Below, one piece after another: positions 2,808 through 40,314 of a DNA stretch of 64,000 bases. Below the pieces are notes generated by a model that did not search any database, had not been told where the DNA came from, and was given only the letters and a program-made list of their open reading frames with translations. The DNA comes from an uncultured Prevotellaceae bacterium (GTDB lineage: Bacteria; Bacteroidota; Bacteroidia; Bacteroidales; Muribaculaceae). The translations under genes and the position numbers were made by a program. The stretch spans positions 1-64,000 of the forward strand of contig CAMHNO010000012.1 in the NCBI GenBank assembly GCA_946186575.1. Reading direction: 5' to 3'. Positions within the stretch are counted from its first letter, which is position 1. Every line of letters starts with the position of its first letter.

Positions 2808-4058
2808 ATGGACAAGAAACAACTAAAACCTTGCAACGTAAACGTGAGTTCCGAAACTGGTAGGCTCAGGGCTGTGCTGCTGCACCGCCCCGGCGTTGAG
2901 ATTGAGCGCATGACACCGCTCAACGCCAATGCCGCGCTCTACAGCGACATCCTCAACAAGCCTATCGTTGACGAGGAATACCGCAACTTCAGTGGTGTGC
3001 TCGAGCGCTGGACCGATGTTTACTATGTGCAAGACATCCTGGAAGAATTATTAACCGACGAGCAAGTGCGCAGTGAGTTGCTCACCGCAAGCCTGCGCGG
3101 ATGTGTGCAGAAGACTGCGAGCGTGATAAATGAAATGGCTGGCGACGACCCCAAGAAACTCGCTCAGGTGCTGATTGAAGGCTGCGAAGATCCGGCATGG
3201 GATGGAGTGAGCGAGCACCGCTATCTGCTCAAGCCCTTGTATAATCTGTTTTTCACTCGCGACGCTTCGTCCACAGTTTATGACCGTGTGCTCATCAACT
3301 CAATGAGCTTTGAGGTGCGTGAGCGCGAGTCGCTGATTTATGAGGCCATATTCAAGCACTTCTTTGGTGTTGATACGCTCAATGCCATGGCTTGGAATCC
3401 ATACGCCCGCACCGAGGGCGGCGACGTGCAGATTGCCAGTGCCGACACCTTGTGCATAGGCCAAGGCATACGCACCAACCGCAAGGGCATTGAGTATCTG
3501 GCTCAAACCTTCGCCCGCGAGCGTGAGCATTTCACAATCGTGGCCCAGGAGCTGCCCAAGGAGCCCGAGTCGTTCATCCATCTCGACATGGTGTTCACCT
3601 TCCTGGGCAAGCATCAGTGCATGGCGTTTGAGCCCATGCTCAAGAAGCAAGGTCTCTTTGCCGGCAAGGACACTACCATCATCACCATCGACCACGGCAA
3701 GATAAGCTACAAGAGCGCACCTAACATTGTGGAAGCGCTCAATAGTCTTGGATGGGAGATAGAACCAGTGATTGGCGGTGGCAGCGACCCATGGACACAA
3801 CTTCGCGAGCAGTGGCACAGCGGTGCCAACTTCTTCTCGCTTGGCGACGGCAAGATACTGGGTTATCGCCGCAACACTCACACCATCGAAGCGCTTGACA
3901 AAGCAGGCTTTGCCGTGCTCAACGCCGAGGACATCGTTGGTGGCAAGGTCAATATGAACGACTACGAGAAGTTTGTGGCAGCCTTCCCTGGCAGCGAGCT
4001 TCCCCGCGCCGGCGGTGGTGCCCGCTGCATGACCATGCCCATCCTGCGCGACCTCTAG
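2808..4058 (+). CDS. arcA: Arginine deiminase
   Basis: It hydrolyses arginine to citrulline and ammonia in the cytoplasm, the first step of the arginine deiminase pathway. The 416-residue length is typical. Family motifs are present: NLFFTRDAS in the first third, RTEGGDVQ, FIHLD, and the C-terminal GGGARCMTMP with the catalytic nucleophile Cys407. The start MDKKQLKPCNVNVSSETGRL is followed by the usual guanidino-group-modifying core. It follows pruA on the same strand, and ornithine carbamoyltransferase lies just beyond. No carbamate kinase or arginine/ornithine antiporter is visible, so how energy is recovered from carbamoyl phosphate cannot be judged here. Confidence 0.95.
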   Translation: MDKKQLKPCNVNVSSETGRLRAVLLHRPGVEIERMTPLNANAALYSDILNKPIVDEEYRNFSGVLERWTDVYYVQDILEELLTDEQVRSELLTASLRGCVQKTASVINEMAGDDPKKLAQVLIEGCEDPAWDGVSEHRYLLKPLYNLFFTRDASSTVYDRVLINSMSFEVRERESLIYEAIFKHFFGVDTLNAMAWNPYARTEGGDVQIASADTLCIGQGIRTNRKGIEYLAQTFAREREHFTIVAQELPKEPESFIHLDMVFTFLGKHQCMAFEPMLKKQGLFAGKDTTIITIDHGKISYKSAPNIVEALNSLGWEIEPVIGGGSDPWTQLREQWHSGANFFSLGDGKILGYRRNTHTIEALDKAGFAVLNAEDIVGGKVNMNDYEKFVAAFPGSELPRAGGGARCMTMPILRDL

Positions 4059-37958: not shown

Positions 37959-39452
37959 TCACTCGCTGCGGCGCTTGGCTATGCTGCGCGAGAGCATGCG
38001 GTAAATTTCTTGCTTGTCGCCAGTTAGCATAGCTAAGTGCTTGGCCATGACGCCTTCGTCGCCACGTGCTGCCGGGCCCGTCTGCGACTGTGCCGGTGGC
38101 ATGGCATCGAGCTTGTCGACGGTAGACTTGATGAGCGGCAGCAGCGCCTCGAAGGGTATTCCCGCCTCGGCGAGCACCTCGGCCGCGAGAGAGTACATGT
38201 GGTTGCTGAAGTTGCTTGCAAAGACCGATGCCACGTGAAGCTTGAGGCGGTCGGCGCCGCTCACCTCATGCACGTTGGGCGTGATCAGCAGCGCGAGCTC
38301 CCTGAGCTGCATCAGCACCTCGCTGTCGCTGCCCTCGATGAAGAGATGCACCTGGCCCAGAGCTGCAGCATGGCTCTTGCTCAGCGACTGCATGGGCCAC
38401 ATCACACCGCAGCGGCAACGAGTTGCGCTCAGGGCATCAATCGATGTAGACCCCGATGTGTGAACCCACACCGCACCATTGTCGAGCACCGCCTGGCCCA
38501 GTGCGGCAATGGCGTCGTCGTTGACGGCGACAATATAGACCTCGCCGTCAGGGGCGAGCTGGTCGGTGGAGCTTGTCCATGGACATCCCACACGCTCGGC
38601 AAGCGCCTGGGCATGAGCAGGGTTGCGGCTGTAGACTTGCACTATCGTGCACTTGTCTTTGAGCGCAAGGGCAAAGCATGTGGCCACATTGCCCGAGCCA
38701 ACTATCACAACCCGCAACTGAGATGCTGTCACACTCCCCCCTGCCCCCTCTAACTTAGAGGGTGAGTTGCTGTTGCGTGTGTTTAGCTCCCCCTCTAAGT
38801 TAGAGGGGGATTTAGGGGGAGTGTGTAAATTCCGCGTCGCGCTCCCGTCATGGTCGCAGTAGGCGTTGTGGGTGTGTGGTTCTTGGTCTGTAATAGTTGC
38901 TGTTGAGCTCTTGTTCTGAGATGCTGTCACACTGCCCCCTGCCCCCTCTAACTTAGAGGGGGAGTTGCTGTTGCGGGTGCTAAGCTGCTCCTCTAAGTTA
39001 GAGGGGGATTTAGGGGGAGTGTGTAAATCCCGCCTCACGTCTCCGTCATGGTCGCAGGGTGCTGTGTTTGCATTCTCAATGAAATTCAAGATAGCATTAA
39101 TTATAGTGTGTGGTTGCTCAAAAACAATATAATTCTCAAATCTTAAAGTATGTATGCCATGTTTGTCGAATAGTAATTTATCTCTTTCAGCATCTTTTAA
39201 TGGTTGCAAAACATGGTAGTGGTAATCTCCATCGAGTTCAATGCAAAGTTTCAATCGAGGACAATAGAAATCGAGAATGAAATTATCTATGCTGAATTGT
39301 CTCCTAAATCTAAAGCCCTTGATTTGATCTTGTTTAAGCCAGTTCCAAAGGGATTTTTCTGCTTTTGTTGAATGGTTTCTTAACTCTCGTCTTATGATTT
39401 TAACTTTTGGGATGTTTTTTATGCGCTTATGATGATTGGGAGAGGCTGTCAC
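37959..39452 (-). CDS. DUF559 (VSR-like) endonuclease domain fused in frame to a DUF2520/Rossmann protein through palindromic repeats
   Basis: One uninterrupted frame holds a DUF559 domain (DNA about 39078-39430), two repeat-encoded linkers, and a DUF2520/ProC-like protein (37959 to about 38717). The DUF559 part has RRELRNHSTKAEKSLWNWL, FRRQFSIDNFILDFYC and LCIELDGDYHYH, whose Asp and Glu-x-Asp fit a PD-(D/E)XK nuclease. The linkers repeat SPSNLEEQLSTRNSNSPSKL and GAGGSVTAS. The DUF2520 part begins with a nucleotide-binding loop (VVIVGSGNVATCF) and keeps the usual length. No ATG precedes either domain after engB: DUF559 could start at GTG 39452 or 39476, DUF2520 at TTG 38717. Whether a fusion or two proteins are made is unknown. 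The open frame reaches into engB to 39791, but that start is implausible. Confidence 0.7.
   Translation of the reverse strand: MTASPNHHKRIKNIPKVKIIRRELRNHSTKAEKSLWNWLKQDQIKGFRFRRQFSIDNFILDFYCPRLKLCIELDGDYHYHVLQPLKDAERDKLLFDKHGIHTLRFENYIVFEQPHTIINAILNFIENANTAPCDHDGDVRRDLHTPPKSPSNLEEQLSTRNSNSPSKLEGAGGSVTASQNKSSTATITDQEPHTHNAYCDHDGSATRNLHTPPKSPSNLEGELNTRNSNSPSKLEGAGGSVTASQLRVVIVGSGNVATCFALALKDKCTIVQVYSRNPAHAQALAERVGCPWTSSTDQLAPDGEVYIVAVNDDAIAALGQAVLDNGAVWVHTSGSTSIDALSATRCRCGVMWPMQSLSKSHAAALGQVHLFIEGSDSEVLMQLRELALLITPNVHEVSGADRLKLHVASVFASNFSNHMYSLAAEVLAEAGIPFEALLPLIKSTVDKLDAMPPAQSQTGPAARGDEGVMAKHLAMLTGDKQEIYRMLSRSIAKRRSE
38720..38870. repeat. Palindromic repeat unit A (~150 bp)
   Basis: The unit starts GAGATGCTGTCACACT. 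It contains CCCTCTAA-C-TTAGAGGG (38746-38762) and CCCCCTCTAA-G-TTAGAGGGGG (38789-38809), then GATTTAGGGGGAGTGTGTAAA and a less conserved tail ending near TCATGGTCGCAG. ACTCCCCC at the start pairs with GGGGGAGT near the end, so the core can fold as one long hairpin with two inner ones. Confidence 0.9.
38918..39065. repeat. Palindromic repeat unit B (~150 bp)
   Basis: Same layout and orientation as unit A, starting 198 bases (66 codons) later. Its two palindromes are CCCCCTCTAA-C-TTAGAGGGGG and CTCCTCTAA-G-TTAGAGGGGG. It lies directly 3' of the DUF559 coding core on the transcribed strand. Confidence 0.9.
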
Positions 39453-39560
39453 ACTTTCGTTATGAGATACAGTCACACTCCACCCTGCCCCCTCTAACTT
39501 AGAGGGGGAGTTGCTGTTGCGTGTGTTTAGCTGCTCCTCTAAGTTAGAGGGGGAGATGAT
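39440..39560. repeat. Palindromic repeat unit C (truncated) plus short extra end
   Basis: GAGATACAGTCACACT at 39464 starts a copy of the unit that stops after the second palindrome (about 39554), 12 bases before the engB stop codon. A lone copy of the unit's end, GAGAGGCTGTCACACT, is at 39440, 24 bases away. Unit C begins 546 bases (182 codons) after unit B. Confidence 0.85.
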
Positions 39561-39571
39561 GGTTGCTGTTT

Positions 39572-40174
39572 TCACTGGTTTATGGATTGGTTGATTTGGT
39601 CGATATAGTCGAGAATCTCGTCGCGGCCCCGGCCGTCCTGACTCGATGTGACGAACACAGGTGGTAGCTCTTCCCAAGTGTTGAGCAGGTGACGCTTGTA
39701 GGCCGCAATAGCTTGGGCTCCTGCCACCTTGCCCAGCTTGTCGAGCTTGGTGAAGACGATGCTGAATGGCACACCGTTCTCGCCCAGCCACTCCATAAAT
39801 TCCACGTCGATTTGCTGCGGCTTCAAGCGGCTGTCGATGAGAACAAAGAGGTTGGTCATCTGCTGGCGCTCAAGCACATAGTCCTCGATAATCTTCTTCA
39901 ACTTCTCGCGGGAGTCCTTGCTGCGCTGAGCGTAGCCATAGCCTGGCAGGTCAACGATGTACCACTCGCCGTTAATCAAGAAGTGGTTGATGAGCAACGT
40001 CTTGCCTGGGGTAGACGAAGTCTTGGCAAGGCCCTTGTGGTTGGTGAGCATGTTGATGAGCGACGACTTGCCCACATTGCTGCGGCCAATGAAGGCGTAC
40101 TCGGGTTTATTGCCTGCCGGGCACTTGGAGTAGTCGCTGTTGCTTATCTCAAATTTTGCTGTCTTTATCTTCAT
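39572..40174 (-). CDS. engB: Ribosome biogenesis GTPase EngB/YsxC
   Basis: This essential GTPase helps assemble the large ribosomal subunit. The ATG at 40174 ([20 protein letters not shown]) gives 200 residues, the family length; the in-frame extension upstream crosses the promoter. G1 is [11 protein letters not shown]3 DLPGYGYA, G4 TKLDK, and the C-terminal [17 protein letters not shown] is typical. The repeat-laden DUF559-DUF2520 frame begins immediately downstream on the same strand. Confidence 0.93.
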
Positions 40175-40192
40175 CTTTATCAATATTTTGCA

Positions 40193-40200
40193 CAAAGGTA
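40193..40200 (-). promoter_or_regulatory. -7 box for engB
   Basis: TACCTTTG on the minus strand, 19 bases upstream of the engB ATG. Confidence 0.55.
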
Positions 40201-40246
40201 GTGAAAAATGATGATAAATGCCAACTAACATTAGAAAAATAGTTTG

Positions 40247-40254
40247 TAACTTTG
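40247..40254 (+). promoter_or_regulatory. -7 box for the threonine-aldolase-like gene
   Basis: TAACTTTG fits TAnnTTTG. The start of transcription would fall about seven bases later, inside the heptamer array. Confidence 0.6.
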
Positions 40255-40256
40255 CC

Positions 40257-40312
40257 CCACTTACCACTTACCACTTACTACTTACCACTTACCACTTACT
40301 ACTTACTACTTA
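40257..40312 (+). repeat. Heptanucleotide tandem repeat, eight units, abutting a start codon
   Basis: Eight complete 7-base units (five CCACTTA, three CTACTTA) run without interruption, and a ninth partial unit, CTATG, contains the start codon at 40315. The array fills the whole stretch between the -7 box and the ATG. Confidence 0.95.
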
Positions 40313-40314
40313 CT

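Follow-up and report, generated by a model that had tools for sequence, protein, structure and literature searches.

What is a small nuclease gene doing between palindromic repeats, in one open frame with the unrelated gene that follows it? The question is raised by a 64-kb stretch of DNA from an uncultured Prevotellaceae bacterium (contig CAMHNO010000012.1, positions 1 to 64,000; hereafter the window), in which a gene of the DUF559 nuclease family lies among hairpin repeats between engB and a DUF2520 gene. The first-pass annotation of this locus held that nuclease and repeats are one mobile unit, similar to repetitive extragenic palindromic (REP) sequences with their TnpA-REP transposase, with another nuclease family at work. 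We observed tight linkage of the gene with its repeats, duplication bounded by the unit, sites that are empty in relatives, ends that diverge in step with the nuclease, and dispersed copies; enrichment in the flanks and differing sites within the genus lend the proposal further support. We thus consider it probable that the feature is a minimal mobile element, a DUF559 gene between inverted ends made of a hairpin and a mirror strand, accompanied by dispersed non-autonomous copies.

In alignments, the window protein keeps the conserved residues, namely D, E-x-D-G-x-x-H, D and R, and a profile search of the window genome (2.7 Mb, 94.8% complete) found one PF04480 match, the window gene itself. 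Six perfect CCTCTAANTTAGAGG palindromes are located at 38747-39550, the sole ones in the window at up to two mismatches, compared to a mean of 0.10 per window in 100 shuffles. They fall in three 142-nt repeat units (38718, 38916 and 39462), the last of which is only 70% alike. As the first-pass annotation had described, the nuclease is bracketed by two of these units, with the third following, and reads in one frame into DUF2520. The bracketing units are 38916 and 39462, and 38718 is on the DUF2520 side; the frame, on the minus strand (39575 to 37959), starts at a GTG overlapping the engB stop, passes through repeats, DUF559 and more repeats, and is also stop-free further upstream, into engB. 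The genome contains 44 perfect palindrome copies, with none for the reversed pattern as control. Most of the 43 oriented copies listed read CACACTCCCCC-nn(n)-CCCCCTCTAACTTAGAGGGGGAG, a C-rich strand mirroring the 5' arm followed by the hairpin, which is the layout of an intrastrand triplex and that of the multicopy, intergenic TM/PIT repeats (here, triplex motifs). Around the window nuclease, the hairpins are positioned outside and the mirror strands inside. The single-stranded DNA fold of 38731-38823 gave a z of −9.3. Rfam returned nothing at gathering score, only five weak matches to miRNA families that we took as chance hairpins. Of the dispersed palindromes in the window genome, 37 were tested for surrounding open frames, and none had at least 80 open codons on both sides.

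Linkage was assessed in 140 DUF559 loci (L and G numbers below are our locus and genome labels), comprising 30 from the genus, 30 phylum-wide and 80 from named contigs. The genus set holds all 30 listed loci including weak and broken ones, from a genus in which DUF559 is matched in 27 of the 101 genomes; the phylum set was taken from among the best in a 392-genome sample, and the named set is the best 80 of 570 relatives by protein similarity. Flanks of 300 bp were usable at 135 loci, which come from many phyla, with L115, L125, L130, L148 and L187 dropped for short flanks. The first-pass annotation had named palindromes equally frequent away from DUF559 genes as evidence against a mobile unit. 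Counted per position, they are not: a triplex motif was present on both sides of 84 of the 135 genes (14/30 genus, 21/29 phylum-wide and 49/76 named) and on at least one side of 111 (23/30, 23/29 and 65/76, respectively), compared to 0/800 and 38/800 for control positions taken from these loci. Most copies in a genome do lie elsewhere, as would be expected of non-autonomous copies. An inverted match between the two flanks (score at least 32) was found at 91/135 loci and 8/800 controls, and DUF2520 loci, used as a further control, gave 0/29 for each of these measures. With a looser motif finder, the counts rose to 122/135 and 63/800; it detected no motif at P. aeruginosa L209 (a gene fragment), Picosynechococcus L254 and Sinorhizobium L208. 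At a gonococcal DUF559 gene, two triplex motifs are found on one flank, and the opposite flank holds a hairpin with an inverted match (score 33).

The association extends to whole genomes. Among 392 Bacteroidota genomes, the palindrome pattern CCCTCTCC-n-GGAGAGGG was detected in 81 of the 166 genomes that match DUF559 strongly, 6 of the 56 that match it weakly and 20 of the 170 without a match (81/166 versus 26/226; Fisher p = 2.8e-16, phylogeny ignored). The pattern CCCTCTCCC-n-GGGAGAGGG was present in 27 of 28 genomes chosen from the named loci, in 1 to 158 copies, with a reversed control of 0. Within the genus, the median number of CCTCTA-n-TAGAGG palindromes is 15 in the 17 genomes with the window type of DUF559, 1 in 10 genomes with another type and 1 in 74 without any (Mann-Whitney p = 1.4e-7 for window type versus none, phylogeny ignored).

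Do these units move? Similar copies were sought in ten multi-copy genomes, comparing a subset of the copies in each, and unit-length copies in unrelated flanks were found in four (G178, G489, G248 and G303). L240 and L241 of G178, on different contigs, have about 490 bp in common at 85%, and their homology runs from GTCCCCTCTCC to GAGAGGGGAC, the hairpin bases. L232 and L233 of G489 lie 3.25 kb apart and share 537 bp at 99.8% between unrelated flanks. L266 and L270 of G303 share 522 bp at 77%, again in unrelated flanks and bounded by hairpin bases on both sides; in this genome, stops interrupt 6 of 8 DUF559 matches. L265 and L277 of G248 share 447 bp at 80% in unrelated flanks, with a clean right end.

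Empty sites were found as well. The first-pass annotation had pointed to the engB-DUF2520 junction of close relatives as the place to look for one. DUF2520 (PF10728) is matched in 81 of the 101 genus genomes, and 10 of 29 DUF2520 loci of relatives were found to include engB in the same orientation, at spacings of 8, 8, 40, 46, 68, 89, 216, 645, 1220 and 1319 bp. In L049 and L055, the two with the 8-bp junction, DUF2520 starts MKKRVVII or MRWRVVLI, and the window insert therefore interrupts DUF2520 at about codon 3, keeping its frame. L047 carries a lone C-rich hairpin, in frame, at the same place of DUF2520. A second case is a 472-bp insertion in methionyl-tRNA synthetase (MetRS; L151), which is absent in 6/6 congeners, where the MetRS parts are 15-63 bp apart; the empty junction was aligned in three of the six. 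The 17 window-type DUF559 loci of the genus form 136 pairs, only 9 of which have flanking genes in common, compared to 134 of the 325 pairs formed by 26 DUF2520 loci; the element has therefore occupied about a dozen sites. With empty junctions and differing sites in the genus, the insertion is not one fixed in all relatives, the other finding that would have spoken against mobility.

In-frame insertion into genes is widespread, and neither this nor the triplex layout of the repeats was part of the first-pass annotation. At 61 of 140 loci, the frame that holds DUF559 stays open for more than 230 codons; 24 of 27 such frames scanned contain a second Pfam family, with none in the remaining three (L167, L193 and L026). 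Host families include ValRS, another class I tRNA synthetase, MetRS, MetH, PriA, Mfd, MeaB, RibD, an aminotransferase and HsdM; one more is presumably an HrpA-type helicase. Eleven of the 24 hosts are restriction-modification proteins (L124, L125, L139, L154, L165, L147, L153, L142, L135, L177 and L127). An alignment to the Protein Data Bank (PDB) places the insert of L129, of about 182 amino acids, in methionine synthase, where residues 956 and 959 flank it. Judged by eye from translations, Bacteroidota copies are also found in MetH, LeuRS, HsdR, UvrC, AroA and PurL. At L028 (about 1020-2260), a tandem array of repeat ends accompanies a DUF559 gene in frame near the N-terminus of what appears by eye to be AroA.

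Of 30 elements considered, 24 could be tabulated, six being without ends that score at least 32; their length is 416-593 bp, with one tandem case of 726 bp, and the outermost part is the hairpin in 20/24 and the third strand in 4/24. Terminal inverted repeats surround an enzyme gene as in classical insertion sequences. The similarity of ends tracks that of the nucleases (Mantel r = 0.55, n = 94; within the genus 0.83, n = 20; p ≤ 5e-4, phylogeny ignored), and each of five DUF559 copies in G266 has its own matched ends (scores 67-117). In a Foldseek search of PDB, an AF2 model of the window DUF559 domain (pLDDT 88) came closest to 3hrl, the structure of a gonococcal (N. gonorrhoeae) DUF559 protein, at E = 1.1e-6; no other match fell below 0.001. 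The next matches were a chain of the Toxoplasma mitoribosome (1.6e-3), the homing endonuclease I-Bth0305I (1.8e-3) and, further down, Vsr (0.06-0.2). By model and alignment, the window protein combines a Vsr-like fold with the catalytic residues, as in EDxHD homing endonucleases.

Several observations weigh against a mobile element. No triplex motif lies within 300 bp at 7/30, 6/29 and 11/76 loci of the genus, phylum and named sets. The window genome has no copy of CCCTCTCC-n-GGAGAGGG because its repeats belong to another type, and at least five palindromes occur in 14 of the 74 genus genomes without a DUF559 match. The most alike pair, that of G489, has ends that do not score as inverted (20 and 25) and differs at the right end by an insert in the hairpin loop; the left boundary of the G248 pair could not be placed. 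Five genomes (G266, G371, G480, G386 and G366) showed no similar unit-length copies among those compared, G490 only a 72% pair, and no clear target-site duplication was seen in the pairs read from G178, G489, G303 and G248. Seven Azospirillum plasmids gave no polymorphism of the gene because all seven keep it at one site. By eye, five Bacteroidota loci share the same MetH site (L104, L106, L112, L114 and L123) and four the same LeuRS site (L098, L101, L117 and L122); as some of these sites recur in several genera, some insertions are old or recurrent. When left ends were matched to right ends, that of the same element ranked first in only 26 of 94 cases (median rank 3). Triplex formation by TM-ECO was reported in vitro, with none in double-stranded form and no support for a stable triplex in vivo, by Holder et al. 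2015 (PMC4666352). Finally, cleavage, excision and insertion are inferred.

The main rival explanation is that DUF559 is a homing-type parasite, which would cut gene-less pairs of triplex repeats and be copied in by recombination, the repeats spreading by other means. The appearance of I-Bth0305I among the structural matches fits this explanation, as does the placement of a DUF559 gene in the EDxHD family in a section on intein-containing genes (PMC9403480). DUF559 and I-Bth0305I share the nuclease fold, and both genes look selfish; unlike EDxHD/I-Bth0305I, the DUF559 unit has inverted ends of its own and many unrelated sites. The repeats also outnumber the nuclease (44 to 1 in the window genome) and occur without it. 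Against this, the in-frame hosts MetRS and DUF2520 show no such repeat stretch in relatives (L049 and L055 for DUF2520), and ends and gene may therefore have arrived together there. In G494, a region of 3.1 kb surrounding the DUF559 gene contains all eight copies of CCCTCTCCC-n-GGGAGAGGG. The ends co-diverge with the nuclease, and the five nucleases of G266 have separate end types. Within the genus, DUF559 sites are mostly non-homologous, yet the MetH and LeuRS sites recur, which bears on homing to a single site. Weakened by insertions at sites that are repeat-free in relatives, the homing explanation appears unlikely to us.

Could DUF559 instead be a stationary Vsr-type nuclease, linked to repair or methylation, with structural or regulatory repeats collecting nearby? 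Earlier work grouped YcjD with the PD-(D/E)XK nucleases, near Vsr (PMC1189080). In Caulobacter mutants without a cytosine methyltransferase, the SOS response depends on VsrA, a DUF559 protein predicted to act in mismatch repair (PMC12907096). Vsr, YcjD and VsrA share the family or fold of the window protein; they are treated as repair or predicted nucleases, with no linked mobile repeat mentioned in the passages considered. E. coli ycjD looks like a settled copy: a single TM motif lies 170-200 bp beyond its 3' side, and an inverted pair is lacking. A stationary gene is hard to reconcile with unit-bounded duplicates in unrelated flanks, with differing sites in the genus, with empty sites and with in-frame insertions into unrelated genes. 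We regard this explanation as very improbable, although some members may have been domesticated.

We give hardly any credence to a third possibility, that the palindromes are REPs moved by a Y1 (RAYT/IS200) transposase with DUF559 as passenger: single and inverted paired palindromes do resemble REPs and REPINs, and Y1_Tnp is matched five times in the window genome (twice in frames of 159 aa and, more weakly, three times in frames of 327-402 aa), but none of these five loci shows a palindrome or triplex motif in the stretches examined (up to 1.5 kb on each side, two cut by contig ends), most DUF559 loci examined are flanked by repeats, and the window protein matches PF04480, not the HUH/Y1 transposase family PF01797.

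How does a DUF559 element compare with known systems? In REP/RAYT systems, the enzyme is an HUH/Y1 transposase encoded between inverted palindromes, which have many dispersed copies. DUF559 elements share with them the gene between inverted palindromes, the single or paired non-autonomous copies and the co-divergence. They differ in that a Vsr-like PD-(D/E)XK nuclease takes the place of the transposase, the ends carry a triplex third strand, several types may share one genome, and the element inserts in frame inside genes. Rickettsia palindromic elements are likewise inserted in frame in protein genes; unlike these, the DUF559 element encodes a nuclease and has C/G-rich triplex motifs as ends. 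Closest in the repeats themselves are TM-ECO, PIT and BoxC, with a hairpin, a mirror third strand and many dispersed copies. The window repeats share the layout of these repeats, not the exact sequence, whereas sequences in Proteobacteria are very similar, e.g. beside E. coli ycjD. Such motifs were described in more than 260 genomes, with 23 motifs in E. coli K-12, and linked to genome instability (PMC4666352); in the passages considered, neither mobility genes around them nor any means of spread are reported. The presence of triplex motifs on both sides of 84 of 135 DUF559 genes departs from this account. A link of the repeats to DUF559 goes unmentioned in the passages considered from PMC4666352, PMC1189080, PMC12907096 and PMC9403480, and among the papers listed in searches of the open-access literature, no title or abstract opening connects DUF559 or YcjD to them.

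For a mobile DUF559 element, we propose the following course of events. Each end, hairpin plus mirror-repeat strand, could form an intrastrand triplex, and DUF559 may recognise the hairpin or triplex, most easily when the DNA is single-stranded during replication or repair. The enzyme would then nick or cut at the hairpin base, and host repair or recombination would put the freed or copied DNA elsewhere. In this way, the full unit could duplicate to new places and also give rise to many non-autonomous copies of the ends, as paired or single palindromes. Since many ends contain no stop in the reading frame, insertions into genes, such as that in DUF2520, can survive in frame.

The features of the locus are compiled in Table 1.

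Table 1 Features of the DUF559 locus and its neighbours in the window.
Feature	Position	Strand	Remarks
DUF559 (PF04480) nuclease domain, Vsr-like PD-(D/E)XK	39078..39395	-	95-97 bits vs Pfam gathering cut-off 20.6
Minimal canonical element	38985..39510	.	526 bp: hairpin, third strand, DUF559, third strand, hairpin
Inner left end	38985..39007 (hairpin), 39013-39023 (third strand)	-	hairpin CTGCTCCTCTAAGTTAGAGGGGG, third strand GGGGGAGTGTG
Inner right end	39474..39510	+	third strand CACACTCCACCC 39474-39485, hairpin 39488-39510
Additional inverted pair of ends	38730..38825	.	unit 38718-38859; hairpins 38744-38766 and 38787-38809, heads outside
End in repeat unit 38916	38928..38964	+	head 38928-38939, hairpin 38942-38964
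Outermost engB-side hairpin	39531..39553	-	without third strand
One open frame	37959..39575	-	GTG at engB stop, repeats, DUF559, repeats, DUF2520
DUF2520 coding part	37962..38720	-	host gene of the in-frame insertion; PF10728, 124.9 bits
engB, upstream neighbour	39572..40267	-	TGA 39572-39574 overlaps GTG of fused frame; GTPase domain PF01926

For the GTPase gene upstream, we use the name engB, as did the first-pass annotation. Short tandem units of the TTACCACTTACTAC type are located at 40255-40312, just upstream of the gene at 40313, and a similar short tandem run lies between engB and DUF2520 in L072. In the genus, G008 and G061 hold 60 and 53 palindromes with no DUF559 found (completeness 82 and 95%), and represent either orphan families or a missed gene; the DUF559 copy of G022 (L039) is of another type than that of the window and carries a stop. 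In Azospirillum argentinense MTCC4035 (L212, 2343-3505), the repeat region left of DUF559 contains an extra 1.16 kb that is absent from A. brasilense L204. A comparison of S. meliloti with Sinorhizobium K101 was rejected as a clean empty site, the DUF559 gene being truncated by a deletion, not absent. In Sinorhizobium L208, DUF559 is followed by a palindromic repeat of about 150 bp (region about 2815-3010); this repeat alone brings in 33 of 40 listed plasmid records, and 117 records match the 3.3-kb query. In appearance, it resembles the rhizobial RIME repeats.

Taken further, we lean towards seeing here a new class of transposable elements, in which a Vsr-like PD-(D/E)XK nuclease of about 110-130 aa would move DNA with intrastrand-triplex ends in many phyla; such elements would be among the most compact autonomous ones and the source of the TM/PIT/BoxC repeats, perhaps also of RIME-like repeats in rhizobia. 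The ends of the element are now defined, and in-frame insertion into conserved genes is documented. Long-known and unexplained triplex repeats thereby gain a first candidate for a mobilising enzyme, one that is open to experiment. If the proposal is true, one more type of enzyme would be known to move DNA, DUF559/YcjD proteins would be given a function, and an old question about these repeats would become directly testable in E. coli K-12.

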